Below, one piece after another: positions 178-17,397 of a stretch of 22,354 bases of DNA. A model generated the notes under the pieces. The model ran no database searches. It was not told the origin of the DNA and saw nothing but the letters and a program-made list of their open reading frames with translations. Source of the stretch: Fidelibacterota bacterium (GTDB lineage Bacteria > Fidelibacterota > UBA8477); the NCBI GenBank assembly GCA_021734045.1, contig JAIPJR010000049.1, positions 1 through 22,354 of the forward strand. Reading direction: 5' to 3'. Each line of letters opens with the position of its first letter. Position 1 is the stretch's first letter. A program made the translations under genes and the position numbers.

Positions 178-2571
178 TTACTTCAGGAAGAGCAGCTTTT
201 TGGTCAGATTACCATTGGGTGTACTGAGTTGATAGAAGTACATCCCGCTGGCCACCTGTTTCCCAAATGCATCCATACCATTCCAGCTCACACTATACCG
301 ACCCGTGGGCATATTGCCACTGACCAGGGTGGTGACCCGCTGTCCCAACAGATTATAAATCGTGAGAGACACGGTTGATTGATAGGGAACTGAGAAATCA
401 ATCGTGGTGGTGGGATTGAACGGATTGGGGTAGTTCTGACTGAGTTGGAAATCCATGGGAATGGGTTCAAACTCATCTTTGATACCCACGAAGGGCTCTT
501 GAACCATAATAGCATCGGCTCGCAGGGTTGATTGCCCGCCGGCCAGCGTGTAATTGGTATCATTCACCAGCGTGACTGTATTCGCCAGTCCGCCGATGAA
601 AGGATAACGGCCCAGCAGAATCCATCCGGAATTATTTGCCTGATCCACTATAACTGTATCCGGGTCCTCGGTAAAGGGCTTCACAATGTATGGCACCGCA
701 TCAGCATCGATTTCCGAGGCGATACTGTACGCATAAACATCATATTCCATGGTATTCTGCATGGTGAGGGACCATTCTACCCAGGCATCCGCGTTCCGGG
801 CGCTGAAAAGGTAAAGATGATTACCATTATACCCCACAGCGGAGGATGAGAAATACCAGTAGTTGTAGAGGGTCGTATCGAGCTGAGCCAGGCTGTCACC
901 CGGATAGGGCTCAAAGCTCAGATCCGGTGAACTGCTCCAGTTAGGATGCGGTTCGCTTTCAGTGGCCGGATGGTCAACATAGAGCTGCTCACCAATACCG
1001 GTTCCATACAGCCGTCGGGTAATCACCGGAAAATCCCAATCATTGGAATTAATGGTGAGTGTATCCGAGTAACCGCGAACCTGGACCGGATGGAACGTGA
1101 TATTCACATTCAGTGAATCAAGAGCCGGAACACTAACCGGGAAGCCGGTGGGTGAATTGATGGTGAACACATCCGACTCCAGGTCGAGGCTGTTGATAAT
1201 CAACTCCTGACTACCAATGTTCTTGATCACCAGATTGGTGCTTGCGTCTGTATCTACAGAGACCTCACCAAAATTCACACTGGTCTGCGGAATCTCGATC
1301 TTGGGTCGCGCCGGTACTGAGACAAACTTCATCAGGTCGGTTCGCAGTACATACCCGCTGCCGGTACCGTCATTCACCATGAAAACATAGTTCAGATTTC
1401 CTTCGATGAAGTAATAAGTCCCGATGAATTTCCAGAGACAGGCTGAGGCTACATTCTGGTTGATATAGACTGAATCGGGTGTGGGTGAGCCAAAGGGATA
1501 CACTTCCACCAGTGCATGATCACTGGCATTATCCGTCAATGGTCCGGCGTAATACACATTGTATTGTCCTGATTCCGGAATATCCGGATTGAATTGGGCC
1601 CGGGCACCGGGATTGGTGGACTGGATGGCATACCGGCTCGTGGCATTTGGAATGCCTTCACAGACAGCGATGCCGTTGGAGTTTGTCCAGGCACCCTGAA
1701 GCTCCACATAACTTGGCGCGCCATTATCATTATTCAAGACCACTGTGAGGGCTGTCCCTTCACCCGTCACGGGAATGCTAATCAGCGGTTCTTCCGGGTC
1801 ATCGCTGGAAATCCGCACCGTATCGTGGACAACCTGCTCAGATGTGGGTGAAAAGCGGACGGTTATCTCACCCTTGCTATGCGCGGGAATGACGTAAGGG
1901 ACACCAGGTTCCGGGACCGAGAAGTTATTGGTATCGGTGAAGAGACTATCAATGGTCAGGGGCTGGTCACCGATATTGTAAATTCCCAGCGTCCAATCTT
2001 CAAACCAACCGATGTTCACTTCCGCATAATTGTATTCATTTCGGCGTTCCGGTTCCAGATCGGGTGCACCTGCACTGCGGACAATGCGCACCGCGTCAGA
2101 CCGTACCGCGTATCCTGTTGTACTCACTGAGTCATCAATCATCTGGATAAAGCTCTCTGAGCCTTCAATGAAATAATAAATGCCCAGCGGACGCCAGTAG
2201 CCACCCTGTACCGATTGGTTAAACCGGAGCGAATCGGGCGTACCACCAAATGGCGAAACCACGTAGAGCGCTTGATTTCGACTATTACTGTTCACCGGCA
2301 GGTAGAAATAGGTCATGTAGTAGCCTGACTCAGGCACTTCCAGGGTCCATTTCGTCCAAGCGCCTGTGGGACCATCATTCCCACCGGAACGTAGTAGAAC
2401 ATGGTGCTGGCCATTGTAGCCAACATTCACCACATCCCAGAAGTCGTAAGTCGTGTACGATTCGAACAGATTGACATCGCTGTCGTCCACTGTCACCGTA
2501 TCGCGAACCTGTTGGGCGACAAGACTGCCGGAAATCAGCAGAATGCCCAAAATGGATAGCAGATGTTTCAT
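178..2571 (-). CDS. Secreted multidomain protein: three golvesin/Xly-type domains alternating with two ASPM/Hydin-type Ig domains, T9SS C-terminal domain
   Basis: 797 residues from the ATG at 2571, chosen because GGGGAGG lies just upstream and a signal peptide (about 1-20, ending SLVAQ) follows at once; an in-frame extension to 2667 is possible but runs through untranslated-looking DNA. Domains seen: golvesin/Xly-like binding modules at about 27-164, 276-417 and 565-691, each with an aromatic-rich core (YYFIEG, YYFIEG, RYPFIGG) and an (R)-(S/T)-D-(A/L) ending; Ig-like ASPM/SPD-2/Hydin ('choice-of-anchor D') modules at about 183-273 and 423-525; a T9SS type A sorting domain at about 711-797 with QNYPNPFNP and a basic KKLLFLK tail. 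It is expected to be exported by Sec, then carried across the outer membrane by T9SS. No catalytic domain is visible, so a surface-binding or structural role is inferred. It stands as its own unit, 148 bases from the preceding gene, with a terminator behind it. Confidence 0.9.
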   Translation of the reverse strand: MKHLLSILGILLISGSLVAQQVRDTVTVDDSDVNLFESYTTYDFWDVVNVGYNGQHHVLLRSGGNDGPTGAWTKWTLEVPESGYYMTYFYLPVNSNSRNQALYVVSPFGGTPDSLRFNQSVQGGYWRPLGIYYFIEGSESFIQMIDDSVSTTGYAVRSDAVRIVRSAGAPDLEPERRNEYNYAEVNIGWFEDWTLGIYNIGDQPLTIDSLFTDTNNFSVPEPGVPYVIPAHSKGEITVRFSPTSEQVVHDTVRISSDDPEEPLISIPVTGEGTALTVVLNNDNGAPSYVELQGAWTNSNGIAVCEGIPNATSRYAIQSTNPGARAQFNPDIPESGQYNVYYAGPLTDNASDHALVEVYPFGSPTPDSVYINQNVASACLWKFIGTYYFIEGNLNYVFMVNDGTGSGYVLRTDLMKFVSVPARPKIEIPQTSVNFGEVSVDTDASTNLVIKNIGSQELIINSLDLESDVFTINSPTGFPVSVPALDSLNVNITFHPVQVRGYSDTLTINSNDWDFPVITRRLYGTGIGEQLYVDHPATESEPHPNWSSSPDLSFEPYPGDSLAQLDTTLYNYWYFSSSAVGYNGNHLYLFSARNADAWVEWSLTMQNTMEYDVYAYSIASEIDADAVPYIVKPFTEDPDTVIVDQANNSGWILLGRYPFIGGLANTVTLVNDTNYTLAGGQSTLRADAIMVQEPFVGIKDEFEPIPMDFQLSQNYPNPFNPTTTIDFSVPYQSTVSLTIYNLLGQRVTTLVSGNMPTGRYSVSWNGMDAFGKQVASGMYFYQLSTPNGNLTKKLLFLK

Positions 2572-2575
2572 AAAT

Positions 2576-2582
2576 CCTCCCC
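2576..2582 (-). promoter_or_regulatory. Ribosome-binding site that fixes the start at 2571
   Basis: The minus strand reads GGGGAGG, then four bases, then ATG at 2571. This decides against the 32-residue longer reading frame beginning at 2667, whose extra residues do not resemble a signal peptide. Confidence 0.75.
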
Positions 2583-2602
2583 AGATTTCATTGCGTTTTG
2601 TA

Positions 2603-2635
2603 TGTTCTTTGAAACCCACATTTTGTTCTTTGAAA
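2603..2635 (-). repeat. Two 12-bp direct repeats upstream of the golvesin-domain gene, 21 bp apart
   Basis: TGTTCTTTGAAA occurs at 2603-2614 and again at 2624-2635 (minus strand TTTCAAAGAACA). The 21-bp period equals two turns of B-DNA, putting both copies on the same face of the helix. They lie 32-64 bases upstream of the start at 2571, where a promoter or activator site would sit. The match is exact over all 12 bases. Regulatory function is inferred from position and spacing only. Confidence 0.5.
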
Positions 2636-2719
2636 TGGATATTACACCGCAATTTCACACAATTCAAGCAGCATTCATTTCCTTTTCAGAACATTCCTTC
2701 ATTTTTATATCACAAACCC

Positions 2720-4537
2720 TTATTTCAACAGGGTCAGTTTTTTCATTTGACGGTTTTCACCACTTGTCATGACCGCCAGATAAATTCCACTGGCTGCGGG
2801 TTGATTCAAATCAGTGTCCCCCTGCCAAATCATATGAAAGCTTCCGGTATGAAACGGACCGCTGTATAAAGTTTTAACCAATCGCCCGGTCAAATCGTAA
2901 ATCCGCACCGTTCCGTGCCCTTGTGAGGGAGCATCAATACGCAACGTCACGGCCGCATTAAAGGGATTAGGGTAGGGCTCATGCAGCGTTAGTGTGGAAG
3001 GAAGTTGCGACGAATCGTCCACAGACAGGTAGCTATATATTAACACCGGACTGGCCGGCCCCTCGTTCTGGAGCTTATCCAAAGCGGCTACGGCATATTG
3101 ATACACGTGCCCGGATTGAAAATCCAGATCATAATACACCGTATCGGGGCGGGGTGTGATGGTCACCAGGTGATTGGGATTAATGATACTCAATGGCTCA
3201 TCTACAGATCGGTAAACATTATAGCGGCTCACTACTTCACCATCGCTGGCTGAATCACGTAATGCAGGCCAGCGAATAATCGCATAGTTGTATTCTTCAT
3301 TGGGTTCGATAACCAACGAATCCACACCCAGTGGCGGAATGTCATCCTTCCAGGGCATGGCCGGTTGGTTGGCGGGATTTTTATAATGGGTGTCGGCCAA
3401 ATTCCAGAGAAATCCCGTATTGGTTACCAGATTATCGTAACGAAAATGGGTGTGACCTTCAGCGTGTAATCCACGGGCGACGGCGATTTCAGAATACACT
3501 TCATTGTAATCGTCCTCGTACTTGTAGGTCCCCATTCCAGCGTACAAGAGCCGATCAGCCCGTCGGTTATTCACCCAATCCATGAGATACTGCTCAAAGG
3601 GATAGGGATCGCCAATCGGCCAGTAAATCATGGGCACAATAATGTCAATATTGCCGTTTTCCGCCCATTGTTGCGGGTCTTGAAACACACCGTAATACCC
3701 ATTCCAGGGTGGTGTGTTATAGCGCCCAATCACTGCAGCTGATACTTTTACCTTTGGCTTGAGAACAATAGCGCTGTCATAAAAAGTATCAACAAATTGA
3801 TTGATTTGAGAGCGCTGCCAGTCCGGCCAGGTGAGGTTATTCGGATTGCCTTCGTCGCTGTAAAAACGGTTCAATGACACATCATCGTAGCTGTATTGGG
3901 TTCCCGGATAGCGGATATAGTCGAAATGAATGCCGTCAATGTCATAATTTTCCACCAGATACCACGCCAAAGCCTGGGTATGGGCGATGACTTCAGGATT
4001 GCCCGGTGAGAAAAACACATCCTCTCCCAAACTTGGATCCGGTGCGTGTCCCTGATTATCCACCATCCGCCAGTCGGGATGCTCATTCAGGGGATGAGGC
4101 GGCGTACTTTCCGGTGGCCAGTAGTTGTTGCTCCAGACCAGGAAACAATTGAACCAAGCGTGGATTTCCAATCCCCGGTTATGTGCCTGGGTAATGGCGT
4201 ACTGGAGCGGATCATACCCCGGATCGCCACCCAGGGTACCGGTGAGTTCGGCAGCCATTGGCTCATACGGGTTGGGGAAGAAGGTGCATCCCCGGGTGCG
4301 CACCTGGAAAAACACCGTGTTCATGTTGGCGGATTTCAAATTATCCAGCATGTTGCGTAGCTGGGTCTGCTGACTGCCGGCATTATGCGAATCTGGCCAG
4401 TCCGCGCCACCGACTGTGGTTAGCCATACCCCACGGCTCTCCTCATACTTGGCAGAGAGCGTAAGCGGTGTGTACGCGAGCAGGCAGATTGCTGTAAGAG
4501 CTGTTAAGCTATTAAGAAATGATGGTTTATATTTCAT
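2720..4537 (-). CDS. Secreted GHL10/DUF187-type glycoside hydrolase-like protein with fibronectin III-like and T9SS domains
   Basis: 605 residues. A signal peptide covers about 1-29. Residues 31-380 match the GHL10 (DUF187, YngK-like) TIM-barrel family: the start ESRGVWLTTV, then VFFQVRTRG near 75-83, HAWFN at 126-130, and the DGIHFDYIRYPG signature at 201-212, which carries the family's conserved acidic residues. A fibronectin III-like module spans about 404-505. A T9SS type A domain spans about 519-605, with YPNPFN and a KKLTLLK tail. Family members are thought to act on glycosidic bonds, but substrates are mostly unknown. It begins only three bases after the stop of the TonB-like lipoprotein gene and is therefore probably the last gene of the long operon; no terminator is visible behind it. 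Its start has only a weak ribosome-binding site, which fits translational coupling. Confidence 0.9.
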   Translation of the reverse strand: MKYKPSFLNSLTALTAICLLAYTPLTLSAKYEESRGVWLTTVGGADWPDSHNAGSQQTQLRNMLDNLKSANMNTVFFQVRTRGCTFFPNPYEPMAAELTGTLGGDPGYDPLQYAITQAHNRGLEIHAWFNCFLVWSNNYWPPESTPPHPLNEHPDWRMVDNQGHAPDPSLGEDVFFSPGNPEVIAHTQALAWYLVENYDIDGIHFDYIRYPGTQYSYDDVSLNRFYSDEGNPNNLTWPDWQRSQINQFVDTFYDSAIVLKPKVKVSAAVIGRYNTPPWNGYYGVFQDPQQWAENGNIDIIVPMIYWPIGDPYPFEQYLMDWVNNRRADRLLYAGMGTYKYEDDYNEVYSEIAVARGLHAEGHTHFRYDNLVTNTGFLWNLADTHYKNPANQPAMPWKDDIPPLGVDSLVIEPNEEYNYAIIRWPALRDSASDGEVVSRYNVYRSVDEPLSIINPNHLVTITPRPDTVYYDLDFQSGHVYQYAVAALDKLQNEGPASPVLIYSYLSVDDSSQLPSTLTLHEPYPNPFNAAVTLRIDAPSQGHGTVRIYDLTGRLVKTLYSGPFHTGSFHMIWQGDTDLNQPAASGIYLAVMTSGENRQMKKLTLLK

Positions 4538-4540
4538 CTT

Positions 4541-5812
4541 TTATTCATTTCCGGTTGCCGGTATCAATGTGCCGGTGGATTGAGTGTGAGCGCCGATGGC
4601 TGGAATGGGTTCAACTTTTCCCGGGGATATGCGAACCTTTGGGAAGAGAGGACTCAAGCCGAAACTGAGTTGAAATTGGACGGGTACAGGAATGTAATAG
4701 CCCTGACTGCCCATGGTGCGTACGGGCGAAAAAGTGAGCGCTTCCAGGGCAGCTTTTAATTGGTCATCAAGGTTTTGACTACCCGTTGATTTGAGGAAAC
4801 CAATCAGGTTCACCGAACCGTTGGTGGCAATCTCAACATCCACCCTCACATCAGCAAATCGATCATCGGACCGCAACAGGCGCAGCAGCGCGTCATAGGC
4901 GTTGGTGTTGCGAATTTCAAGCTCCTGAGTCAGCGTCGTAACGGAAAATTCATCCGCCGTACCGCTCTGATTATCCGCGCCATTTGAATCCAGGGAGTCC
5001 GCCGGTGTCTTAATTTCCGCGGCGGTGGCCGCCACATTACCTTTCCGCTCAAAGACCATGGTGAGGGTACGGATATCGTACGGCCAGTCGTTGGCATCAA
5101 AGCGCAATACGAAATCCCGAATAACGACCTTCAAAGTTTTTACTTCCGGAGGTAGAGGATCGAATACAACCAAACCTTCTGCTGTATTGCCTTTGAAAAT
5201 CGGGTCTTTCAGCAGCATGGTTTCCTTGGCTTTTCCTAATTTTTCCTTAAACCGGCGCCGTTCATTCCCGGAAGCACCCTTCTCGGCGATGAAATACCGC
5301 TCCAGGTTCGGCGGCTCGTCATATTGATCCAGACCGTAACTCTTCAGAACCGCGCCATTGTCCAGATGCAGCTCAATTTTCCGGGGATCAAGCTCAATCT
5401 TGGGTTGGGTGTAGTTAAAAATGCGCACTGCAAAAACGGTGAACTTGGCTGGCGTATAGCCCTTTTCCAAATCAACCCAATTGCCAAAGGTGTAGGGGTT
5501 GGTGGAGAATTGACCACGCTTGGAAATCTCCGGGTAAAGTGCATTCAGCATGGGGTCGGTCATCTGTTCGACCTCAATTTTTACCCCTTCCTGTTGCCAG
5601 ACCCAGGTGCGGCCATCCACAATGTAGGCGCTGTCTGTGGCAGCAGTATCAGCAGCCACGAAATTCATGGGGATAAAAATATCTTCCAGCAGGAAATAGC
5701 TGCAACCACCCATAATCCCAGTGAATAACAGCGTCACCAGCGCGGTCCGTGTTATGCTTTTAAGCTGATTGTGGCTGTATCGCTTTTTGGTCATGAATGC
5801 AATCTTTCTCAT
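4541..5812 (-). CDS. Predicted lipoprotein with a TonB-like C-terminal domain
   Basis: 423 residues from ATG 5812; ATG 5794 (417 residues) is equally plausible, as neither has a good ribosome-binding site. The N-terminus is basic, then hydrophobic, and ends in GGC with Cys37, an acceptable but not perfect lipobox, so lipid anchoring is likely but unproven. Residues about 115-255 look like a beta-rich domain I cannot name. Residues about 322-384 resemble the TonB C-terminal domain: VDVEIATNGSV, then GFLKSTGSQNLDD, then AALEALTFSPV, then a closing strand VPVQFQL. This is the usual order of 'x-G-x-V ... SSG...LD..A..A...W.F.PA...G......V.F'. The tail 385-423 is proline-rich and unstructured. It follows ExbB, ExbD and the DUF4159 protein in the same operon, which supports a Ton/Tol-type role. 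It lacks the N-terminal transmembrane anchor typical of TonB. The TonB assignment rests on pattern, not a profile search. Confidence 0.78.
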   Translation of the reverse strand: MRKIAFMTKKRYSHNQLKSITRTALVTLLFTGIMGGCSYFLLEDIFIPMNFVAADTAATDSAYIVDGRTWVWQQEGVKIEVEQMTDPMLNALYPEISKRGQFSTNPYTFGNWVDLEKGYTPAKFTVFAVRIFNYTQPKIELDPRKIELHLDNGAVLKSYGLDQYDEPPNLERYFIAEKGASGNERRRFKEKLGKAKETMLLKDPIFKGNTAEGLVVFDPLPPEVKTLKVVIRDFVLRFDANDWPYDIRTLTMVFERKGNVAATAAEIKTPADSLDSNGADNQSGTADEFSVTTLTQELEIRNTNAYDALLRLLRSDDRFADVRVDVEIATNGSVNLIGFLKSTGSQNLDDQLKAALEALTFSPVRTMGSQGYYIPVPVQFQLSFGLSPLFPKVRISPGKVEPIPAIGAHTQSTGTLIPATGNE

Positions 5813-5838
5813 TTCGCTTGCTTCTTACTTACTGCTTC

Positions 5839-7119
5839 TCACTGCGCCGAATAGTCTCGTTGTTGATCCACAATGCCACCGGGCTGGGTGAGCGCAAATA
5901 CAATCATGTTAATGCCCATATGGTACTGCCGGGTAACATCAACCCCTGCACCACCGCTGAGAATCTGCCCCCGTTCACCTTCCGTCCCCCAGGCCGTTCC
6001 GTGGTCCCAAACCACGCCATAACCTTTATCAGAATACAGCACGGCCAGGCGTCCTTCTATGAACACCCCGTCCAGGTAAGGCGTCATTTCAATCCCACTC
6101 CGCAGACTCGTGTACTGGTCCGCCCCTGGTGGCGGCATATTAAAATCGAAGTAACAATGGTAAATGGGGTGGGAGGATGGTAATACGACAAACTGTGCAT
6201 CAGCGCCCAGAGCTCGCTTCACATACATCTTCGCGCTGCGACCGAAGGGTGAGCGCGGGTCAGCTGAGGAATTGTCTATCACCAGAAAGCCGCCGTTTTT
6301 CAGCCATTTGCCCAGATTCCTCACTTCAGAATCGGTCATATTAAAACTGGTTTCCCCAAATAGGAAAATCATGGGTGCTTTCAGCAACGCCTTGTCATCA
6401 AATGTGATTCGCGGACCAATATCCATTTTGATATCGGTGTAGGTGTGCATGCGATGAATCAGGTTATTCAATGCTTCCGGTTCGGAATTCCAGCCCGGAT
6501 TCCCGTCCCAATCCCGCTCCTGGTCCGAATCGTACCGGATGGGATTCAAGGTGAAAAATCCCTTCACATCCTTTTTATTGTTGGGATTCACATCCACATA
6601 GGCCATGCGGTTCCCGATATTCAAGTCGCTGGCATCCAGCAGGTTTTCGCTGAGGGAGGCCATATCCGATTCCTTTTCAATCTGAACCGGCTTGGAGCTG
6701 ATGATTGGTTTTAAATCCATCTCCGTGGGACGAAAATCCATGCTACGTTCAATAGGTGCGGACGGTGGCGCCAGAGAAGCCAGAGCACTCATGCCTTTTG
6801 TGGCAGCAGTCTGCATGGAGCGTGGCTTGAAGGTTTTAGCCTGAGCGATTTTCTGCTGGAATTTCCGGGTGGTGGTTTTTGGCTTTTTCATCAACTCCAT
6901 GGTCTTCTGTAGCCGGGGTGCCCGCTGGTAAAATTTCACATTTAATGGCGGCTCAGACTCCTCCAGCTTGCCTTCTGGCAGTTTTATGCCGGTAATAAGC
7001 GGGATTATGTGCAGAACCAACGCGATGAGCCACGCCCACAGCAAGATTCTGTGGTATTTAATAACCAGTCGCACGGGCATGCTGGACGGGTTAAAGCGGT
7101 TTAGTGTCGTGGCATTCAT
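5839..7119 (-). CDS. TonB-like N-terminal membrane anchor fused to a DUF4159 domain
   Basis: 426 residues. One transmembrane segment lies at about 25-44, with a basic cytoplasmic side (RLVIKYHR) and a histidine inside the helix (ALVLH, His37). That is the arrangement of the TonB anchor, whose in-membrane His contacts ExbB/ExbD. Residues 45-190 form a low-complexity, Lys/Pro/Ser-rich periplasmic linker. Residues about 190-410 match DUF4159: FFTLNPIRY at the start, then IFLFGE, a GGFLVIDNS strand-turn, the DHPIYH-like SSHPIYH, and a GYGV segment, in the order of a class I glutamine amidotransferase-like fold. The gene lies 38 bases after exbD and about 26 bases before the TonB-like lipoprotein gene. 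The start is uncertain: neither ATG 7119 nor ATG 7080 has a clear ribosome-binding site. The function of DUF4159 is unknown; coupling to the ExbB/ExbD motor is inferred. Confidence 0.85.
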   Translation of the reverse strand: MNATTLNRFNPSSMPVRLVIKYHRILLWAWLIALVLHIIPLITGIKLPEGKLEESEPPLNVKFYQRAPRLQKTMELMKKPKTTTRKFQQKIAQAKTFKPRSMQTAATKGMSALASLAPPSAPIERSMDFRPTEMDLKPIISSKPVQIEKESDMASLSENLLDASDLNIGNRMAYVDVNPNNKKDVKGFFTLNPIRYDSDQERDWDGNPGWNSEPEALNNLIHRMHTYTDIKMDIGPRITFDDKALLKAPMIFLFGETSFNMTDSEVRNLGKWLKNGGFLVIDNSSADPRSPFGRSAKMYVKRALGADAQFVVLPSSHPIYHCYFDFNMPPPGADQYTSLRSGIEMTPYLDGVFIEGRLAVLYSDKGYGVVWDHGTAWGTEGERGQILSGGAGVDVTRQYHMGINMIVFALTQPGGIVDQQRDYSAQ

Positions 7120-7157: not shown

Positions 7158-7574
7158 TTATGGAGAATTTTGATCTTCCGGATCAGCTGCAATAGCCAAC
7201 TGATCAATGCCGGCGGCTTTGGCAGCATCCATCACATCCACTACCATGTAATGCAAAGCCAGCTTATCCGCCTTTATAATCAAAACCTTGCTTCGGTACA
7301 TATCCTTCTGACGCCGAAGTTCCGGCTCCAGAGTCTCCAGCGTGACGATGGTACCATTCAACTCCATCACACCTTGATCGGAAATGAGAATATTCAAATC
7401 TTTCTCCGGTGGTGCTTCACTTTCGGCAGCTTTGGGTAGGTCCACTTCGATGCCTGGTGTGGTGCTAAAAACCGTGGTTACCATGAAAAAAATCAGGAGG
7501 AGAAACACCGTATCAATCAATGGCGTCAGATCCATCCCTTTATCATCAAGTTTACTGCCGCGCTGCTTACGCAT
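7158..7574 (-). CDS. exbD: ExbD/TolR-family biopolymer transport protein
   Basis: 138 residues from ATG 7574; a TTG two codons upstream (7580) is also in frame. One N-terminal transmembrane helix carries the family signature DLTPLIDTVFLLLIFFM, whose aspartate (Asp21 in this numbering) is the proton-carrying residue. A periplasmic domain of usual size follows (DLPKAAE, then LNILISDQG, then KADKLALHYMVVDVMDAAKAAG). The start codon overlaps the exbB stop by 8 bases (7567-7574), so translation is coupled, with GGAA at a suitable distance inside the end of exbB. With ExbB it forms the inner-membrane proton channel that powers a TonB-type protein. Only one ExbD copy is present here, next to the TonB-like anchor protein. 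Confidence 0.95.
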   Translation of the reverse strand: MRKQRGSKLDDKGMDLTPLIDTVFLLLIFFMVTTVFSTTPGIEVDLPKAAESEAPPEKDLNILISDQGVMELNGTIVTLETLEPELRRQKDMYRSKVLIIKADKLALHYMVVDVMDAAKAAGIDQLAIAADPEDQNSP

Positions 7575-8373
7575 TTTCAATTCCGTTGGCTGTTTTGACG
7601 GCCTCTTCTACCTCCCGGGCGACCTTCGCTGAAAGCCGCAATTCCGACTGCTTGGCCTTCAACAATTCCTTCTCTTTATCGGTCACCACATCATCATGGT
7701 AAACCTGCTCCACATAGTCCCGGTACACAGCCGGACGGCCGATTTCCTGGATTAATTCATTAATAAACAGGTGGGTGAATGGCTCCAGCCGTTTCAGAAT
7801 CTGCTCCACCCGCCGCCGGAAATAGTTGTACCCTAAGATGGAGGGAATAGCGATGACCAGACCCGCCGCCGTGGTAATCAATGCCGTATTAATACCACCC
7901 GCAACCGCCTGGGGATCACCGGCACCCTGGCGCGCAATGGCATCAAAGGCTTGAATCATACCTACAATGGTTCCTAATAATCCCACCAGCGGCGAGAGCG
8001 TACTGATGGTATTCAATCCAGCCAAATACTGTTCCAGATAATCGCGGCTATAATTCTCCGAGTCAAATTGCAGCTCTTCCCGCATTTGCTGAACGGAGCG
8101 TTTTTCCATGATCAGTAGATTCAGGCGATTGGCCAGCTGCCCCCAGACATTGGCTAATAATCCCTTCTCTTTGCTTAATCGTTCGTCTAAAGCTGTTGGC
8201 CCGTCATTTGTCAGAACAGTCTTCATCTCCTGGAGAAATTCCTCTGCATTCTTGTCTTTTGGAACCTTGCGATACCGGTAAAACCGCTCGATGATGAAAG
8301 CCCAGGATGTAATCGACAACAACAACAGGGGAATCATAAATGCCGGGCCGGCTTTCATTAAAAAATCTATCAT
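7567..8373 (-). CDS. exbB: ExbB/TolQ/MotA-family proton channel protein
   Basis: 268 residues. Three transmembrane helices: about 10-30, 122-144 and 163-185. The signature region is clear: TLSPLVGLLGTIVGMIQAF in helix 2 and INTALITTAAGLVIAIP in helix 3, including the conserved Thr residues lining the proton path. A cytoplasmic loop lies between helices 1 and 2. The C-terminus (about 205-268) is a long charged helical tail, more extended than in many ExbB proteins. The start at 8373 is supported by GGAGGA (8381-8386) with a 7-base spacer. It overlaps exbD by 8 bases. The 88-base gap to the upstream TPR gene is the widest inside this operon and could hold an internal promoter, though none is obvious. 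Confidence 0.95.
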   Translation of the reverse strand: MIDFLMKAGPAFMIPLLLLSITSWAFIIERFYRYRKVPKDKNAEEFLQEMKTVLTNDGPTALDERLSKEKGLLANVWGQLANRLNLLIMEKRSVQQMREELQFDSENYSRDYLEQYLAGLNTISTLSPLVGLLGTIVGMIQAFDAIARQGAGDPQAVAGGINTALITTAAGLVIAIPSILGYNYFRRRVEQILKRLEPFTHLFINELIQEIGRPAVYRDYVEQVYHDDVVTDKEKELLKAKQSELRLSAKVAREVEEAVKTANGIENA

Positions 8374-8461: not shown

Positions 8462-11400
8462 CTACTGTTTGCGAATCCATTTCGCGTGGTCCCGGGCAAA
8501 CGCCACCGCTTCAGCCTCCTCGGTACTGTCGGCGTAACCGTCCACCACCCGGTCAAAATATTCCAAAGCGGTCTGGTATTTACCCAATTGTTCATAGGCT
8601 GATCCGATATTCACCAACGCGCCAACGGCAACACTGCGGGACCCGTACTTTTCCAAAACCTTCTCCAGCTCTTCAATGGCTTTCGGCCAGTCTTCGTCAT
8701 CAAAATAGACCATGGCCGCTTCATAGGCCAGGTAGGACTCAATCTCACCGATCTCGTCAATTAATTTGCGTGCTTTTTCCGCCAGTTCATGGTCCGGATA
8801 ACGCGCCACGACCTGCTGATAGGCATTAACCGCTTCATCATATTTCTTCAGGTTGTAGTAATAATCACCAACCGTAAACTGAGAGAAAACCGCGAAATCA
8901 GATTCGGGAAAGTCGGTGGCAACCCGCTGGAAATAGGTCACCGCCGTTTCTGAACTATCCAACTGCACCAACGACCAAGCGATATTGTAAAGGCTGTGGG
9001 GCAGTAACGCCGAATCCGTTACCTGTTGATACCAGGCAATGGCATCCGGATAGGATTTGGCATTGTAATAGGCTTCCCCAATCTGAAATGTCACTTCCTG
9101 GGCTAACTGTGAGTGGGGATATTGCGCCAGAAATACTTTGAAATATTGAATGGCATCGGGCCAGCTATTGGCATTCATCTGGGAAAAGGCACGGTAATAA
9201 AATGCATACTCACGATTGGCATTCTCCGGAAACTCGGTAATCACGCGCTGGAATGCATCAAACGCTGCTGGTACATATTCTTCCAGCAGGAAATAGCATA
9301 AACCAGTTTGGTACACCAGGTTACCCTTCACATCTGCTTGTTGCGCCAGGGGCAGTGCTTTTTCGTAATCCTCCAATGCTGCAGCGTAATTTTCTTCCTG
9401 GTACCAACCATTGCCACGGAGATAGTAAGCGCGTGCTTTGGTCCCGTCCGGTATCTGGAGTTTCAAAATCTCTGAGGCAATCTGACGGCTTTTGGCAAAA
9501 TCACCGGTTGTGAGCAATAGCTGAACCTGCAAAAGCAACAAATCGGCCCGGTCAGTGGGTTGGTCGGTAACAGCCAGCCACTCGGTGATACGCTGTTCTC
9601 CCAATTCCTTCTGACCCGTGCGACCGTAGGCGTGGATGAGGCGATCCCGCGCCAGGCGAACAAAATTGCCGTTGTCCGGTTGTTGCAGCACCGATTCGAA
9701 ATCCGCGATGGCTTTTTCAAATTCCTGTAGCTGGATGTGGATAGTGCCTCGGCCGATGAGACTGGAGTTGTACAATTGCTGGTTATTTAAATCAGCCAGC
9801 GCCAGGTTGAATTCCTCCAGGGCCAGGTCAAATTCCTGGGTTTTGATATAGAGCCGGCCCAGGAAGTAATGAAATTCAGCCGCTTGTTGCCGGTCTGTCA
9901 GTGTAGCCAATGCTTTTAGTAGAATCTGCCGGGCTTCTTCAACATCGCCTTTACTCAGGTAAATTTCACTGATCTCGGACATGGCGCCGGCGTAATAGTC
10001 AGATTCGGGTGCGATGCGGCGCAGGTACCGGATGGCCTTCGCATAATCACCACGGTCACGGTGGGTATAGCCGATTTCCAGCAGGACATTGTTGGTATCC
10101 AGCCTCTCCGTCCCGGCAAAGCGGGTCAATACGGTATCATACAGCGCCAGGGCAGGTTCATATTGCTTCTGCTCCATTAAAATACGGCCCATTTGCAAGA
10201 GCGCCTGTGGCAGGAGGGGGTGGTTGGGGTGATTTTTTCGCATCTGTTCCAGACTCATGACCGCTTCCGGCCATTTATCAATGCTGTAATAGGCTAAAGC
10301 CTGATTATAGAGTGCTTCTCCGCGAAAATCGCTCTTGGGAAAAGAATCCAGCATGGTTTGGTAAGTAGCCGCACTGGCACTGTACTGACCCGAATCGAAG
10401 TATAATTGCCCCTTCACAATCATGGCCTGATCCAGTGGCAGGCCCACTTCATCAGCCACATCTTCAAACCCTTCCAGGTAGATGGTCAATTCCTGATTTG
10501 CCCGCTGGTACAGACCCTTTTCTTTCAGAAGTAAGACTTTGGCATATTGCATTTTTCCCTGAAAAACCCGGGACATGGAGGTATCCATAGCCTTGGAATA
10601 GACCGCCACTGCCGCGTCTACACCTTGCTGCTCAAATGTGATTTCCGCGATGCGTAAGTAGGCATTCTCTACCACATCGCGCATCCGCACAAAGGTATTT
10701 ACTACAATCTGGTACTGCTTAATCGCCTCATCCCAGCGCTCCAGCTTTTCGGCAATTTCACCAATCTTCATATATGCCTTGGCAGCGATTTCGAGAATTT
10801 CGTCGCTATCCTGGCCCAGGGCGATTTTGCTCTCGGTCTGGCTCTGGGCTTTCAGTTTTTGCAGCGCAACACCACTCCAGTCACGCTCGGTAAAGGTTTT
10901 TGGTGTGTGTTCTTCTATCACCGTTTGATAAGTGGCAGAGGCATTCTCCCAAGCTTCCATTTTTTCATACGCCTGGGCTTGCTTCATCAATGCCCGGACG
11001 GTGTACTTGCCGTCCGGATGCTTCAAAACCAGATCACGAAACGCATTCACCGCCCCCGAATAATCCTCCATCTGAAAATAAGCCCAACCTTTGTTGTAAT
11101 GCGCTTGTTCCACATAGTTACTGTTTGGGAAGCGTGCAATTAATGTATCCGCCTGGGCGATGACGGTTTCATAATCTTCTGCAGCGTAGGCGCTCTGGAT
11201 GATTTGGTATTGGGCCAGGGAACGAATAAAGTCATTGCCCTGCATCTGCCGGACATGGGAAAAATTGTCAATTGCCTCGGCGTAATTCCCCTCCTTGCGC
11301 TCGATATTTCCAATCTGGTAGTAGCAGGCCATGGGAAGCGTCACGATAAGACTGTCCTGAATGGTGATATAAATACTATCACTGGTGAGGAAGGGTGATT

Positions 11401-11575
11401 TGTTTTCCACAATCCGGGCAAATTGGTCTCTTGCCCCCGCATAATCTTCCATGACCAGCAGGGTTTTCCCCTGGTCATAGACCTTCAGCATTTCGCTGGG
11501 CGAGGGGATAAAATGGCTGACAACAATGCCTGCCAGCAGGATGTAACCCATATATGCTTCGAGAATGGCCAGCAT
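8462..11575 (-). CDS. Large TPR-repeat protein with N-terminal membrane anchor
   Basis: 1037 residues. A hydrophobic segment at about 4-24 (YMGYILLAGIVVSHFI) is best read as an uncleaved inner-membrane anchor, placing the rest in the periplasm. Almost all of residues 35-1037 is made of tetratricopeptide-type helical pairs, about 20 or more, with recurring patterns such as A.YQIG...., PNSNYVEQAHYNKGWAYF, FPKSDFRGEALYNQALAYY and YPDHELAEKARKL. These are of the YbgF/BamD-like subtype, where repeats end in '(F/Y)P(D/N/E)S'. TPR arrays act as protein-binding scaffolds. Its place just upstream of exbB and downstream of the outer-membrane barrel gene suggests a periplasmic adaptor linking motor and outer membrane. 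It starts 20 bases after the barrel gene stop, with no strong ribosome-binding site; ATG at residue 9 is an alternative start. Confidence 0.88.
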   Translation of the reverse strand: MLAILEAYMGYILLAGIVVSHFIPSPSEMLKVYDQGKTLLVMEDYAGARDQFARIVENKSPFLTSDSIYITIQDSLIVTLPMACYYQIGNIERKEGNYAEAIDNFSHVRQMQGNDFIRSLAQYQIIQSAYAAEDYETVIAQADTLIARFPNSNYVEQAHYNKGWAYFQMEDYSGAVNAFRDLVLKHPDGKYTVRALMKQAQAYEKMEAWENASATYQTVIEEHTPKTFTERDWSGVALQKLKAQSQTESKIALGQDSDEILEIAAKAYMKIGEIAEKLERWDEAIKQYQIVVNTFVRMRDVVENAYLRIAEITFEQQGVDAAVAVYSKAMDTSMSRVFQGKMQYAKVLLLKEKGLYQRANQELTIYLEGFEDVADEVGLPLDQAMIVKGQLYFDSGQYSASAATYQTMLDSFPKSDFRGEALYNQALAYYSIDKWPEAVMSLEQMRKNHPNHPLLPQALLQMGRILMEQKQYEPALALYDTVLTRFAGTERLDTNNVLLEIGYTHRDRGDYAKAIRYLRRIAPESDYYAGAMSEISEIYLSKGDVEEARQILLKALATLTDRQQAAEFHYFLGRLYIKTQEFDLALEEFNLALADLNNQQLYNSSLIGRGTIHIQLQEFEKAIADFESVLQQPDNGNFVRLARDRLIHAYGRTGQKELGEQRITEWLAVTDQPTDRADLLLLQVQLLLTTGDFAKSRQIASEILKLQIPDGTKARAYYLRGNGWYQEENYAAALEDYEKALPLAQQADVKGNLVYQTGLCYFLLEEYVPAAFDAFQRVITEFPENANREYAFYYRAFSQMNANSWPDAIQYFKVFLAQYPHSQLAQEVTFQIGEAYYNAKSYPDAIAWYQQVTDSALLPHSLYNIAWSLVQLDSSETAVTYFQRVATDFPESDFAVFSQFTVGDYYYNLKKYDEAVNAYQQVVARYPDHELAEKARKLIDEIGEIESYLAYEAAMVYFDDEDWPKAIEELEKVLEKYGSRSVAVGALVNIGSAYEQLGKYQTALEYFDRVVDGYADSTEEAEAVAFARDHAKWIRKQ

Positions 11576-11595: not shown

Positions 11596-14343
11596 TTAAT
11601 AACCAGCGACCACCTCCACGATGATTTTTATGTTCTCGGAATCTCTCAATTCGGCAACCTCCGGGTCCACATAGCGAACGGTTTCGGTCTGGAAACCCAC
11701 CTGTAGCCACAACTCATACCCACCGTACTGGGTGTGGTTGGCCACGGTTCCCAGAAAAATCTGCTTGTTGAAATCATTCCGTGGGTCTTTGAAGTCGCGG
11801 TAACGATAGGAGAGAACACCCTTGTCATCAAGTTTGTCCCAAATGTTTTTGGTGGAGAAGCCCTGATAGCCCATGCGTAACTGTGTTTTCTCGGTGAGCT
11901 TATAGTTGAAGCGGATGATGGGTATGGACCAGCGGCGGTCATATTTCAAATCGGTGACAAAGGCGAGTGTGTTGGGATCCAGTGTGGTTTCCTCGCGCTT
12001 TTCTTCCCGCCGTTTGTACTGGAGCAGAATATCGATGGTCTCACTAAGGGGCAGGCGGTAACTGACCTTTGGAAAGACAAACCCATAATATCCCACATCA
12101 CCAATATGCGTGGATTCTGTACGGACGCGATCCGGCAGGTAACGTTTGTTCTGATCAAACTTCACCTTGCCTTCAATCACCAGATTAGGAATTTGATCGT
12201 ATCCCAGCATGGCAAAATAGGAGTGGGCTACACTATTTTGGTAAAAGAGGTTCTCGTTGGTATTATACAGCATGGCGTATCCCACCGCCGATTCCTGATA
12301 CTGAAATCCCGGGTCGGGAATATTATCTGCCACCCGTTTCCCGATGTAGCCGAACTGTACCCGTCCCAGGGTGGGTTTCTGTAGGTAATAATTGAACTTG
12401 ATATAATCGCTGTAATTATTGCCCTGAAAGGAAATGGCTTTCTGGCGCATGGTTCCCGCAGTCAACTCCAGATTGCGACCGGGATGAAAACTGGCGAAGA
12501 CGTGGTGACCTTTCGTATCGGGGCGGTAGAGATAGTCCGGGAGAATGTCGTTTTCCCGTGAATCAATCACATCGTTGTTGTTCCAGTCATCGCCAAAGTC
12601 AAAGCGCTGCGGATCCCGGTAAAACATCATAAACGGCTCGGCATAATCGGGTTCACCATTGCTGTTCTGGTCATCATCGGGAACACCGTCATTGTTTTCG
12701 TCAACACCGGGGAAAATACCTGCGTCCGGTCGCGGGAGTTGGGCATCGTAAACCTCATTCTGGTTTGCGATATAAAACTCGTCATTAAAACTGGCCAGGG
12801 CGGCACTGGAAATCCATGTGGTGTTATTATTCGGGTCCAGGATATTTCCGCCGGAATATCCGTATGGTCCCGGACCAATAATCATGGAGCCGTCAGCGTA
12901 GCGGTCGTTGTCGTCATTGTCATCCACAAGGGAAAAATAGTAAGTGGATGAATCCGCACCGTTCATGAGGCTTAGGTCACTACCATAATTGGGGTTCATC
13001 TCAAAGAATTCCGCCCCGATGGTGAATTTGCCCATATCGCGTTTGGTTTGCAGATACCAGCTTGATGCGGTCTGATCGGTGACAAATCCATCCGGATCGG
13101 GAAATTTCTGGTGGAGCTTGCTGATGTCATACTCACCGTTGAGGTGGAATCCCAACAAATTGGCTTCGGCGGCCAGTCCGTAAATCGTTTTTCCCGTATT
13201 CAATCCGTAATCAAACGAAACCTGCCGTTTGTTGGACTGATCCTTCACATTGCCATCTGCGCGGGCGACCAACTGGGATTGGGTGTAACCGGTGCGCACA
13301 TCGCCACCTGCCTGTACCGGGTAGGTCTGGTAGGCCTCAACCGAATAGTCATTGGAAAGAGTCATGGTGACCTGGACGCGCTTGGTTCCCGGGGGCAATT
13401 GGTAATGAATCTCTTCAACACGCTCGCCGGCAATATCTACCGGATAGCCATTGGGTTCCTGAATGGGTATAATAAAGTACGAGAATGGTGTTGCACTGGT
13501 GGTGTCTGAGGTCAGTGTACCGGATACCTTCACCAGTGGACGGCTATATAAAATCGCGCCATTGGCAAGTTCACCAGCTTCGGGACTGTCATCGGCAATG
13601 CGAATCACGAAATGTCCGGAGGTCACATTAATGGGTGTCACCGCACCGGTGAGGGAATTCTTGGGTCGGTCGCTGGCTGCCTCCGTCTGGAAAATGTTCA
13701 CATAGCTGCCGGTGAGATTCAGTACATCCCCGATCTCCGTGCGCCAGGTACCCCCTAATAAATAGGTAGCCCAGGAATAATTCCGGGTTGTGACCTGGGG
13801 GACAGAAACCGATAAATCCAACGGCATGGCAATGGGGTCGGAGAGACGGCTGGAGATAAAACTAAAGTTATTTTTCCCCGTAAAGCCGTCCCAGCGAATA
13901 CCATTAAACCGGGCTTTATTCAAAATATGGGGTGAAAACCGGGTCCGAATAGCGTCACCGATGATAAATGACGAACTGAAGCCCTTATAGCGATCCTGCG
14001 AAACAATTAGATTTTGGAAATAAATCAGATATTGCCGGCTTTTTCCCAGGCTGCTGCCGCCGGGGACAATGGGATTGTGTCGCAATGTATAGACGGGGAA
14101 TCCTTCCACCAGGAAATTGCCGAAATTGTCGTAAAGTTTACGGGAGATAATTTCCCGGGCGTAATTCTCGTACCCGTCAATGCCATAGTTTTCATATCCC
14201 TCACCATGACTCTCACTGGGAAGGGTGATGTATTGTGCCAGGGTGCTACGCCCGGGCAAAAGCATGGTGGTCACCAGACAAGCAAGCAGTAGGAAGCGGT
14301 GGAGTTGGGGTCGTGACTGTCCTGAATGTGTCATCATTGCCAT
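11596..14343 (-). CDS. Large outer-membrane beta-barrel protein with Asp-rich calcium-type loops
   Basis: 915 residues. A signal peptide ends near residue 37 (STLAQ). No family is recognised with confidence. Most of 180-915 shows alternating hydrophobic/polar strands with aromatic girdles and short turns, ending in a strand-like IKIIVEVVAGY, as expected of an outer-membrane barrel. Residues about 230-335 look like a globular domain. Between about 470 and 605 are Asp/Asn-rich segments (DDNDDND; DENNDGVPDDDQNSNG; DWNNNDVIDSREND) like thrombospondin type 3 or dockerin-type calcium loops, probably extracellular. It is sandwiched between the PorV/PorQ-like gene (17 bases) and the TPR gene (20 bases). 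Start: ATG 14343, or the nearby ATGs at 14337 and 14334; GAAGAG lies at better spacing for 14337. It may be the outer-membrane partner energised by the downstream ExbB/ExbD system; that is inference. Confidence 0.8.
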   Translation of the reverse strand: MAMMTHSGQSRPQLHRFLLLACLVTTMLLPGRSTLAQYITLPSESHGEGYENYGIDGYENYAREIISRKLYDNFGNFLVEGFPVYTLRHNPIVPGGSSLGKSRQYLIYFQNLIVSQDRYKGFSSSFIIGDAIRTRFSPHILNKARFNGIRWDGFTGKNNFSFISSRLSDPIAMPLDLSVSVPQVTTRNYSWATYLLGGTWRTEIGDVLNLTGSYVNIFQTEAASDRPKNSLTGAVTPINVTSGHFVIRIADDSPEAGELANGAILYSRPLVKVSGTLTSDTTSATPFSYFIIPIQEPNGYPVDIAGERVEEIHYQLPPGTKRVQVTMTLSNDYSVEAYQTYPVQAGGDVRTGYTQSQLVARADGNVKDQSNKRQVSFDYGLNTGKTIYGLAAEANLLGFHLNGEYDISKLHQKFPDPDGFVTDQTASSWYLQTKRDMGKFTIGAEFFEMNPNYGSDLSLMNGADSSTYYFSLVDDNDDNDRYADGSMIIGPGPYGYSGGNILDPNNNTTWISSAALASFNDEFYIANQNEVYDAQLPRPDAGIFPGVDENNDGVPDDDQNSNGEPDYAEPFMMFYRDPQRFDFGDDWNNNDVIDSRENDILPDYLYRPDTKGHHVFASFHPGRNLELTAGTMRQKAISFQGNNYSDYIKFNYYLQKPTLGRVQFGYIGKRVADNIPDPGFQYQESAVGYAMLYNTNENLFYQNSVAHSYFAMLGYDQIPNLVIEGKVKFDQNKRYLPDRVRTESTHIGDVGYYGFVFPKVSYRLPLSETIDILLQYKRREEKREETTLDPNTLAFVTDLKYDRRWSIPIIRFNYKLTEKTQLRMGYQGFSTKNIWDKLDDKGVLSYRYRDFKDPRNDFNKQIFLGTVANHTQYGGYELWLQVGFQTETVRYVDPEVAELRDSENIKIIVEVVAGY

Positions 14344-14360: not shown

Positions 14361-15350
14361 TTAGAATTCATAGGTGAGGGTGTACCGTTGCGTGGCACCG
14401 GCATCCAGTATACTCTGGGACCAGACATAGGCGGCATCCAGACGGAATTGATTATATCGCAAGCCAAATCCACCGGACAGCTCGCTACCACCATTGTCGC
14501 TGGCAGAAGCGCCACCCGCCCGGACCAGAATAGCGGTTTTCCCGAATCGATTATCAACACTCAGGGTGCTCAGCTCCACACCGGCGCGGATCTGACCCCC
14601 ATCCTGAAGCACATAATCCATACTCACCAGTCCGCTATTCCCTAACCAGGCCATTCCCAGGCGGGGGATAATCGGCAGCCGACCGGCGTCTTTCTGGTCA
14701 CCATCCACCGCGATGCTGGTAGGAATCAGGTTCTTAATGGCTAATCCAAGGGCGATTTTACCTTGAGGAGCCAACCCCAGTGGAAATTTCATCTGGCCCA
14801 GATCCAAGTCGTAATACAAACCGGCATCGGCAGTGAAGGTGAATTTGCTTAAAGCATCATCCTGAACACCGGTTACCGGGTCAACATCCGGAGTCATGCC
14901 CCAGTACAATCCCCGCAAGGCCACACCGGCAGCGATATTCCACGGCAATTCAAACGTGGTAGCAACCGGAATTTGAATCTCCTGGGACACGCCGGTGGTG
15001 AAAACCGAAATTCCGGCTCCCATTAACCCCAGAACCGGTGTGTCGTGATAAACCACACCGGCGCTGAAGTGCCTCAGGCTGCCTTCATTAATCCCGCCGA
15101 ACAGATTGGCGTAGGAGGTGAAGGCCAAATTATTGGGCGTACGGGCCAGGCCGGCAATGTTGTAAGCCAAGGCCTCACCATCACCAGCCAAAGCCGTATA
15201 CGCCCGTCCCAAACCAAGGGATCGGGTTCCATAATCCCCAATCTCAAAACCTGCGTGGAGTTTGGGTGTCCAGAGCATCACCCCGATCATCATCAACATG
15301 AAAAATCCCGGACGGGTGCTGCGTAAAATTTTTCTGAATTGAATGCTCAT
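14361..15350 (-). CDS. PorV/PorQ-family (UPF0164-like) outer-membrane beta-barrel protein
   Basis: 329 residues. Signal peptide about 1-33 (ends LHAG). The mature N-terminus has the family hallmark GTRSLGLGRAYTALAGDGEA...YNIAGLAR, corresponding to the common 'G.R..GMG.A..A.A.D..A...NPAGLA' motif of PorV/PorQ and FadL-like barrels. Barrel strands follow throughout, closing with a C-terminal aromatic strand ending in TYEF. PorV is the T9SS shuttle that escorts cargo with C-terminal sorting domains to the PorU/PorZ attachment complex; many FCB genomes carry several paralogues next to cargo genes. This one lies 22 bases after the discoidin-domain protein gene, suggesting a dedicated shuttle or partner for it. 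Whether it is functionally PorV, PorQ or another member cannot be decided here. Confidence 0.87.
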   Translation of the reverse strand: MSIQFRKILRSTRPGFFMLMMIGVMLWTPKLHAGFEIGDYGTRSLGLGRAYTALAGDGEALAYNIAGLARTPNNLAFTSYANLFGGINEGSLRHFSAGVVYHDTPVLGLMGAGISVFTTGVSQEIQIPVATTFELPWNIAAGVALRGLYWGMTPDVDPVTGVQDDALSKFTFTADAGLYYDLDLGQMKFPLGLAPQGKIALGLAIKNLIPTSIAVDGDQKDAGRLPIIPRLGMAWLGNSGLVSMDYVLQDGGQIRAGVELSTLSVDNRFGKTAILVRAGGASASDNGGSELSGGFGLRYNQFRLDAAYVWSQSILDAGATQRYTLTYEF

Positions 15351-15372: not shown

Positions 15373-17397
15373 CTAGTAAGCAACCACAATGGGTTTGGTG
15401 AAAACATTATCCCCGGCATCTGATTCCACACGAATCTGACACAAATACACACCGGGCGCGACGCGCTCACCCGATTGGTTGGTTGCGTCCCAGGTAGGAC
15501 CGGAAGCACCGCCGAAATAGGTAGCGGGGTACGTGCCATCGAGCACGGTGGCGACTTTACGCCCTCGAATATCGTAAATGGTGATGGTTACCGGTCGTTG
15601 TTCAGAAAGTTTGGCTACATAAAAGGAGATATGTGCCACATCGCAAACCCCGTCGTTGTTGGGTGTAATGGGGTTTGGTTTGATGGTGACCAGATTCAGG
15701 GAGACTTCCGGAATATTCGGTACTGTTACCTGCCAGCCGGTGGGACTCTCATCCACGCGCTGGGGATTGTCGGGAGATCCGGTGGACATGATAATCGCCG
15801 GAAGCGTATTGTTGGGCTCGGAAAACACCACATTGAATGTGAGACCCAGCTTCCCGGTGGTATTGAAAGTATTGTTGAAAATGACATAGAACCGGTCGCT
15901 TTCTGCGCGGGTGGTAGCCAGGTCATTGATATCTGCACCATCCAGACTCAGCGTCAAATCATGAATCGCAGCCGGCGTGTACACCAATATCGTATCCACA
16001 CCGTAATCCGTAGCGCCGAATGTGAAGTCCAGTGAGTAGGTAATGGTGGTGTCTTTTAACACCGGAGCCTCAGCCACATCCAGCGACGCATCAACCTTCG
16101 TGGCAATCAGGCGGCTGTCGTATTCAAATGAGATCTCGTTCAACTCCGGCGTACTGGTGGTGCCGGTGAACATGGACATGGCAAATTGGAAATACTGACG
16201 GGGTTCGGGTACGGGGAGAAATTGATTGTCAACAGCGGTTGGCGCAGACCAGCCTGACCAGGCAGTGTAGGTGACCACAATAGGTGGCAGGGTAATTTCG
16301 TCTATGCCGGTTGTGTCACTCCACAACACGATATTATTGGTGGTGTCAAAGTGAACCGTACCCGCAGCGAGTAAATCCGTTCCGGCCGTATCCTCCACCG
16401 TCAGCCCACCCAATGGGAACCAGGGATGTGTCAATGTATAGCCATTGTCCACAAAGGGCTCACCAACGGTGTACTCACCATCCTGTTCACCAGTATCCCA
16501 GGCTTCGTTCGACTGCTTGGTGCCATCGCCATTGGTATCATTATTGATGCCATTTGCGCCAAAATCGGAAAAGTCCTCACCGGGATTCCACACGCCATCC
16601 GTCATCAGCATTTCTGTCACCAGTGTAGAATCAGAACGGAACCGGACGCTCGCTCCTGTGCTGGTGGGTAACGTCAGTTGCCAGGTGAAGCGCCCTAGAT
16701 TCATCCGGCCACCCAGATCCTGAATACCTGAGATGTAATTTCCCACTGGAACCGGTCCCAGGCTGTAAACCTCCAATTCGCCTAATCCCAATGTCTTAGG
16801 TTGGGCATTGGGTTGTTTTAACCCATGAAAGCGAACGAAACGACCCAGTTGGGCGGGAAAACGGATGGTCAGAGCGCCATTGATATAGGCCACCATCTGT
16901 CCAGCAGCAACGGTATCCCAAGTCGTGCCTTCCAGACTGATGGATAGGAGGTAGTCGGTTGGCGCGAACACCGAAGCCACATCCGCCCGGTACCGAATAA
17001 TGACTTTATACAGGTTACGCTCGCTCTCCAGATCCACTTCTGCGTAGGTTTCAGTCCAGTTTTTGCTGGTGTAGTAAGCATGGTGATTTAAATCAGCCGC
17101 CGACCCATCGGTTATCTGGCTGGCATCCAGGGTTTCATCGGGACGGACAAATTTAGCAGGCTTATCCAGTGCAATATTCTGGGTGGAATCGCCCTCCAGG
17201 ATAATCGCACCTACTGCTGAATCCACTACACACCCCTGCATCGTGGCACCAGTGGCGAAATCAGAAACGCTGGTCAGTGTATGATATTGGGGTTGTGCCA
17301 AACCGATACCCAGTCCCAGAAACAGGAATGTGACCATGAATTGGTAGCGCTGTTTCAACCAGTAAAAATGCCCCCGCCAAGTTCTGCAATTATCCAT
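15373..17397 (-). CDS. Secreted discoidin (F5/8 type C)-domain protein with FlgD-Ig-like C-terminal domain
   Basis: 674 residues. The start is supported by AAGGA (17404-17408) at a 6-base spacer. The signal peptide is long-armed, ending near residue 35 (IGLAQ). Residues about 72-213 form an F5/8 type C (discoidin) galactose-binding-like domain: NIALDKPAKF, then ITDGS, then YAEVDLESERNLYKVIIRY, then RFVRFHGL. Residues about 268-320 are Asp/Asn/Gly-rich and may bind calcium. Beta-sandwich sequence of unknown family follows. Residues about 569-674 match a FlgD Ig-like/gliding-motility type C-terminal domain (PNPITPNNDG...TITIYDIRGRKVATV...APGVYLCQI). It ends TKPIVVAY and lacks the basic KKLLxxK tail of the other secreted proteins here. 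As the first gene of the operon, followed closely by the PorV/PorQ-like gene, it may be that protein's cargo or an outer-membrane-associated component. Confidence 0.85.
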   Translation of the reverse strand: MDNCRTWRGHFYWLKQRYQFMVTFLFLGLGIGLAQPQYHTLTSVSDFATGATMQGCVVDSAVGAIILEGDSTQNIALDKPAKFVRPDETLDASQITDGSAADLNHHAYYTSKNWTETYAEVDLESERNLYKVIIRYRADVASVFAPTDYLLSISLEGTTWDTVAAGQMVAYINGALTIRFPAQLGRFVRFHGLKQPNAQPKTLGLGELEVYSLGPVPVGNYISGIQDLGGRMNLGRFTWQLTLPTSTGASVRFRSDSTLVTEMLMTDGVWNPGEDFSDFGANGINNDTNGDGTKQSNEAWDTGEQDGEYTVGEPFVDNGYTLTHPWFPLGGLTVEDTAGTDLLAAGTVHFDTTNNIVLWSDTTGIDEITLPPIVVTYTAWSGWSAPTAVDNQFLPVPEPRQYFQFAMSMFTGTTSTPELNEISFEYDSRLIATKVDASLDVAEAPVLKDTTITYSLDFTFGATDYGVDTILVYTPAAIHDLTLSLDGADINDLATTRAESDRFYVIFNNTFNTTGKLGLTFNVVFSEPNNTLPAIIMSTGSPDNPQRVDESPTGWQVTVPNIPEVSLNLVTIKPNPITPNNDGVCDVAHISFYVAKLSEQRPVTITIYDIRGRKVATVLDGTYPATYFGGASGPTWDATNQSGERVAPGVYLCQIRVESDAGDNVFTKPIVVAY

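Follow-up and report, generated by a model that had tools for sequence, protein, structure and literature searches.

The window analysed here (the whole stretch of 22,354 nucleotides) comes from a 2.54-Mb metagenome-assembled genome of the phylum that we count below as Marinimicrobia (Candidatus Marinimicrobia or Neomarinimicrobiota, now Fidelibacterota). Ten genes lie head to tail on its minus strand, 3-88 bp apart or with short overlaps, in the order F5/8-domain protein, PorV-like protein, g915, TPR protein, ExbB, ExbD, DUF4159 protein with a transmembrane (TM) anchor, lipoprotein, GHL10 protein and Golvesin protein:

15373..17397, minus strand: F5/8 C-domain protein with a T9SS-type C-terminal sorting domain (PF00754, E 8e-10; CHU_C); syntenic in KSB1
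14361..15350, minus strand: PorV/PorQ-family-like protein (NF033709, E 2e-14, below cut-off); syntenic in KSB1
11596..14343, minus strand: g915, a 915-aa protein belonging to no known family; syntenic in three phyla
8462..11575, minus strand: TPR protein of 1037 aa (TPR families; weak similarity to PorW/SprE); syntenic in KSB1 and a third phylum
7567..8373, minus strand: ExbB/TolQ (PF01618, E 7e-30), with S20xxxW24 in TM1 and a Pro in TM3, residues that TolQ/ExbB have where they contact TolA/TonB
7158..7574, minus strand: ExbD/TolR (PF02472, E 1.6e-28), with the conserved Asp (PLIDTVFLL)
5839..7119, minus strand: candidate force transducer, TM helix plus DUF4159 (PF13709, E 5e-27; AF2 model); orthologues in KSB1 and the third phylum
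4541..5812, minus strand: lipoprotein with a conserved core (about residues 1-260) and a TonB-type C-terminal domain (about 295-389; TIGR01352)
2720..4537, minus strand: GHL10 glycosyl-hydrolase-like protein with a T9SS tail (PF02638, E 3e-50; TIGR04183); syntenic in KSB1
178..2667, minus strand: Golvesin-C/choice-of-anchor protein with a T9SS tail (PF25275, E 4.5e-44; TIGR04183); syntenic in KSB1

The genes for ExbB, ExbD, the anchored DUF4159 protein and the lipoprotein are consecutive, in the order and at the positions given by an earlier sequence-only reading; exbB and exbD are intact and adjoin the transducer gene, and the GHL10 gene starts 3 bp after that of the lipoprotein. The g915 protein has no sequence match in Pfam, NCBIfam or the PDB and is probably an outer-membrane barrel; it contains a conserved Asp/Asn-rich, calcium-loop-like stretch, DENNDGVPDDDQNSNGEPDY. 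Profile searches of the cluster found none of the TolB/Pal families that are the hallmark of Tol-Pal, and Pfam searches no TonB-dependent receptor plug or barrel family.

The adjacency of the four genes is conserved beyond this phylum, in KSB1 and in a third phylum-level group (64 genomes centred on G470, separate from the Marinimicrobia and KSB1 sets). The KSB1 genome concerned (L077/L121/L122) has the block in the same order as Marinimicrobia, with the TM-DUF4159 genes as a tandem pair and a lipoprotein of 266 aa that lacks the TonB-type tail; between its lipoprotein and GHL10 genes lies a gene for a 314-aa protein without significant family match (L077:10262-11206). The third-phylum module reads g915-TPR-ExbB-ExbD-DUF4159-lipoprotein, with one or two ExbD in many loci. 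Among 49 third-phylum loci, which partly overlap and many of which are broken by contig ends, 33 have the TPR gene, 26 ExbD, 25 ExbB, 25 the lipoprotein and 24 g915, while the F5/8, GHL10 and Golvesin genes are absent from most. TM-DUF4159-type matches occur in 38 of the 64 genomes, with a maximum of 14 in one genome; this multiplication is seen at L134, L136, L137 and L208 of G470 and in G639 and G681, with four copies in tandem. The cluster is rare in the other two phyla: the lipoprotein is found in 3 of 245 Marinimicrobia genomes, all of one genus, the full TM-DUF4159 protein in 1 of 82 KSB1-phylum genomes, and g915 in 3 of 80 genomes searched, only those having the operon. Occurrence at 3/245 and 1/82 rules out simple vertical conservation within Marinimicrobia and KSB1, and transfer or loss of the cluster is likely there. 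None of the intermediate DUF4159 matches in KSB1 (G273, G274, G277 and G279) is motor-linked; one of them adjoins MoxR/DUF58-type genes.

The DUF4159 protein has the single N-terminal TM helix (about residues 18-43) with an in-membrane His that the sequence-only reading described, H37 in the motif ALVLH (residues 33-37), followed by a D-box-like strand (58-68), a linker to about residue 195 and, again as that reading had it, a DUF4159 domain (residues 207-410; PF13709, 95.1 bits against a gathering cut-off of 25.9). There the chain ends; a TonB C-terminal domain is missing from it. The AF2 model, of low confidence outside the head (mean pLDDT 46), has a helix at 18-43 and a strand at 60-66. 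The best solved match of the modelled head in structure comparison is 4i66, Hoch_4089 (E 3e-10), and the structure matches give it a Rossmann/amidotransferase-like fold. A long linker is indeed present, but it is not proline-rich filler: its sequence hardly varies within the genus and is conserved in part in KSB1. As published, the D-box is a strand of alternating hydrophobic and polar residues between prolines that is captured by ExbD dimers, QPISVTMVTPAD in E. coli (PMC10907165). Just outside the membrane, the window's PLNVKFYQRAP fits this pattern, and both KSB1 copies follow the same rule (P-LSVKFIQ-TAP is a KSB1 example). A relaxed form of the pattern, drawn up after seeing the sequences, occurs in 27 of 53 transducers, themselves related, against 2.8 expected from shuffles; the strict form is seen in 4, for an expectation of 0.6.

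The anchor of the window's protein is AxxxH, the Ser of the SxxxH of TonB and TolA being replaced by Ala; the KSB1 anchors are true SxxxH (SVILH and SLLIH), as are several others. The TM His is found in the window's genus, in KSB1 and in many third-phylum copies, but is missing from about ten motor-adjacent third-phylum transducers, so that docking through the His is not universal. Orphan TM-DUF4159 copies away from exbB may also lose it: G470 has orphan paralogues (L136, L137) without the TM His and a motor-linked copy that retains it. G681 (L203, L205) has long TM-DUF4159 variants of 448-501 aa with SLALH anchors and no exbB nearby.

In cryo-EM structures from E. coli, the Ser and His of TonB or TolA touch a Ser and a Trp in TM1 of ExbB or TolQ (PMC12215075), and S20xxxW24 of the window's ExbB aligns to SIASW of the TolQ in the solved structures. 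In 24 motor-transducer pairs the ExbB Ser goes with the transducer His in 12 cases and never with its absence, while another residue at that position goes with the His once and with no His in 11 (7, 0, 1 and 8 pairs after dereplication; Fisher p 0.0014); the Ser column is tied first for covariation among 214 ExbB columns. The covariation partly reflects shared ancestry, which inflates the figure, and the contact Trp is not conserved, so we take it as support rather than proof.

The lipoprotein has a candidate lipobox after its signal helix, MGGC in the window, cleaner in sister genomes (LGGC or LSGC) and atypical in KSB1 (FIQC). The TonB-type C-terminus attributed to it resembles TonB C-terminal domains in both profile and structure comparison. 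TIGR01352 matches residues 321-382 with E 4e-6, at 27.0 bits just short of its curated cut-off (27.1), and the other TonB profiles fall below theirs (PF13103, 19.2 against 22 bits; PF03544, 15.2 against 24.6 bits); hhalign pairs the tail with the same genome's own TonBs at E 1.7e-4. The AF2 model of the tail, built from three sequences only, is locally fair (pLDDT 64-82 for residues 301-360, below 50 beyond). In a Foldseek comparison of this model, TonB/FusB take seven of the top eight rows, and in VIA the first eight rows all belong to TonB/FusB C-terminal domains, over residues 295-389, at Z 5.0-6.8, modest taken alone. Taken together, these matches put the resemblance beyond chance, and the C-terminus is, on the predicted structure, a real TonB fold. 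An ApaG/Ig-like assignment of the N-terminal domain was not used, the matches being weak (VIA, Z about 4.5).

In the 22 lipoproteins with readable C-termini, a TonB_C-type tail is found in 3 (one genus), an AgmX/PglI-type tail in 8 and none in 11. The AgmX/PglI tails belong to the third phylum (7 of 8 tested, all over the curated cut-off at 43.7-61 bits) and have secondary matches to GltG and GltJ. The presence of a different TonB-like tail on the same core in another phylum makes the association of tail and core a recurrent one. Where the lipoprotein is tail-less the anchored DUF4159 protein is still present, and a search for a TonB-like tail elsewhere in such loci turned up a single ordinary TonB, encoded on the opposite strand (L184). 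A TonB-superfamily tail thus comes in two forms on one lipoprotein core and yet is dispensable, since 11 of the 22 lipoproteins lack it while the transducer stays.

For a long time, motors of the ExbBD/TolQR type were associated mostly with TonB, TolA and gliding, and reports of transducers with other heads date only from 2025: the vWA-headed force transducers of Williams-Jones et al. combine a TonB-like TM helix with an SHLS-type motif, a motor box, a linker and a non-TonB globular head, in operons that run TPR, tolQ, two tolR, transducer (PMC12204202). The present cluster resembles them in the make-up of its transducer and in its TPR-ExbB-ExbD-(ExbD)-DUF4159 layout but differs in having DUF4159 as the head instead of vWA and in adding conserved lipoprotein, g915 and PorV-like genes; neither Marinimicrobia nor KSB1 is mentioned in that paper. 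With TonB and TolA and their ExbBD/TolQR motors it shares the motor, the TM His, the D-box-like strand and a transducer gene beside the motor genes, while the head domain is different and the TonB-type domain, if present, sits on a separate lipoprotein. By the tests made, the cluster belongs neither to the vWA-transducer family nor to the Agl-Glt systems considered below; its DUF4159-headed transducer is best read as a variant of the vWA-headed, non-TonB type described recently. DUF4159 would then be a second non-TonB head type. Its set of partners is conserved across three or more phyla, in one of which the genes have greatly multiplied, and this points to a wider class of motor-driven envelope machines yet to be explored. 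The cluster also gives DUF4159, of which no mention was found in the literature searched, a testable cellular context, and it would separate being pulled from gripping an outer-membrane target, usually joined in TonB.

From the computed domain content, synteny, motifs and tail fold we infer energisation, force direction, outer-membrane location and target, and conclude that the cluster probably encodes a PMF-driven trans-envelope machine with a DUF4159-headed force transducer and a lipoprotein on which a TonB-type docking domain is optional. ExbB and ExbD would form the inner-membrane motor. The TM helix of the transducer would dock on ExbB via the in-membrane His, its D-box-like strand would be captured by ExbD, and its linker would bring the DUF4159 head, in place of a TonB C-terminal domain, into the periplasm. 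That the motor energises the DUF4159 protein, one of the suggestions of the sequence-only reading, is probable given the TonB-like anchor adjoining exbB/exbD, and docking of the lipoprotein at the outer membrane at the same time fits with it. The lipoprotein would be the partner on the outer-membrane side, and the TonB_C or AgmX/PglI domain added in some lineages would most likely bind a partner strand by beta-augmentation. Probable partners in the outer membrane or periplasm are the TPR, g915 and PorV-like proteins. A more elaborate version, which we put forward tentatively as the less probable course, has the transducer split over two proteins: the motor would pull the DUF4159 chain, the head would engage the outer-membrane lipoprotein, and the tail would pass the force to a barrel (g915 or the PorV-like protein). 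If true, several phyla would have a motor-driven envelope system that has not so far been described.

A task for such a machine is suggested by its neighbours. As an accessory motor for T9SS-like export, ExbB/ExbD and the DUF4159 protein would supply the energy for exporting or assembling the F5/8, GHL10 and Golvesin proteins, a reading that is compatible with the force transducer and names its task. The same conserved run does include three genes for proteins with T9SS-type tails, as well as genes for a PorV-family-like protein and for a TPR protein resembling PorW/SprE; however, neither the PorV nor the PorW match reaches its cut-off, and most third-phylum loci lack the three presumed cargo genes. 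We consider this task rather unlikely.

The head might instead be an enzyme of amidotransferase-like fold tethered near the motor, with the TM helix a mere anchor. The fold does match amidotransferase/Rossmann proteins, and the majority of DUF4159 proteins in Marinimicrobia are small, secreted and anchorless, but the anchored subfamily does not share the GHG and HADD-type residues of the secreted one, and the D-box-like strand and the His/Ser covariation suggest contact with the motor; we regard an enzyme as unlikely. The secreted proteins share with ours the family DUF4159, but they are about 230 aa long, have a signal peptide and no anchor or linker, and lie in DUF456-DUF4159-DUF4175-TPR loci with no adjoining exbB/exbD; the different neighbours and the missing anchor rule out membership of the window's cluster in these ordinary loci. 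Most Marinimicrobia carry such a secreted DUF4159 (L048-L064), which is absent from the window's genome; the sister genome G002 has both kinds.

We think it distinctly improbable that the cluster encodes a relative of the AglRQS core complex of Myxococcus, in which GltG contacts AglR (PMC3169522), serving motility or surface assembly. The ExbB-like motor, the two ExbD-like proteins of many loci, the TPR proteins and the AgmX/PglI tails with their secondary GltG/GltJ matches are all reminiscent of Agl-Glt (AglRQS, GltG/PglI). There, however, the tail is on the TM transducer GltG and here on a lipoprotein, the transducer head here is DUF4159, and the cluster has no FHA domain and no specific match to GltC, GltD or GltE.

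One of the two inferences offered by the sequence-only reading was that the two proteins together replace TonB, anchor and receptor-binding domain lying on two chains that serve a TonB-dependent receptor; although both TonB hallmarks are real and on adjoining genes, and the same lipoprotein core bears a different TonB-like tail in another phylum, we dropped this as the leading reading and consider it very doubtful, since the source genome, which the survey for canonical TonBs covered, has a canonical exbB-exbD-exbD-tonB-tonB locus on another contig, the tail is missing from KSB1 and about half of the lipoproteins (11 of 22), in clusters that still have the anchored DUF4159 protein, and the window's cluster lacks the receptor family searched for above. 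The canonical TonBs (L005:5217-6661) lack a His in the TM helix, and at the position of the TolQ contact Ser their ExbB carries Phe. A third contig of the source genome encodes an M56-peptidase-like protein bearing a TonB tail.
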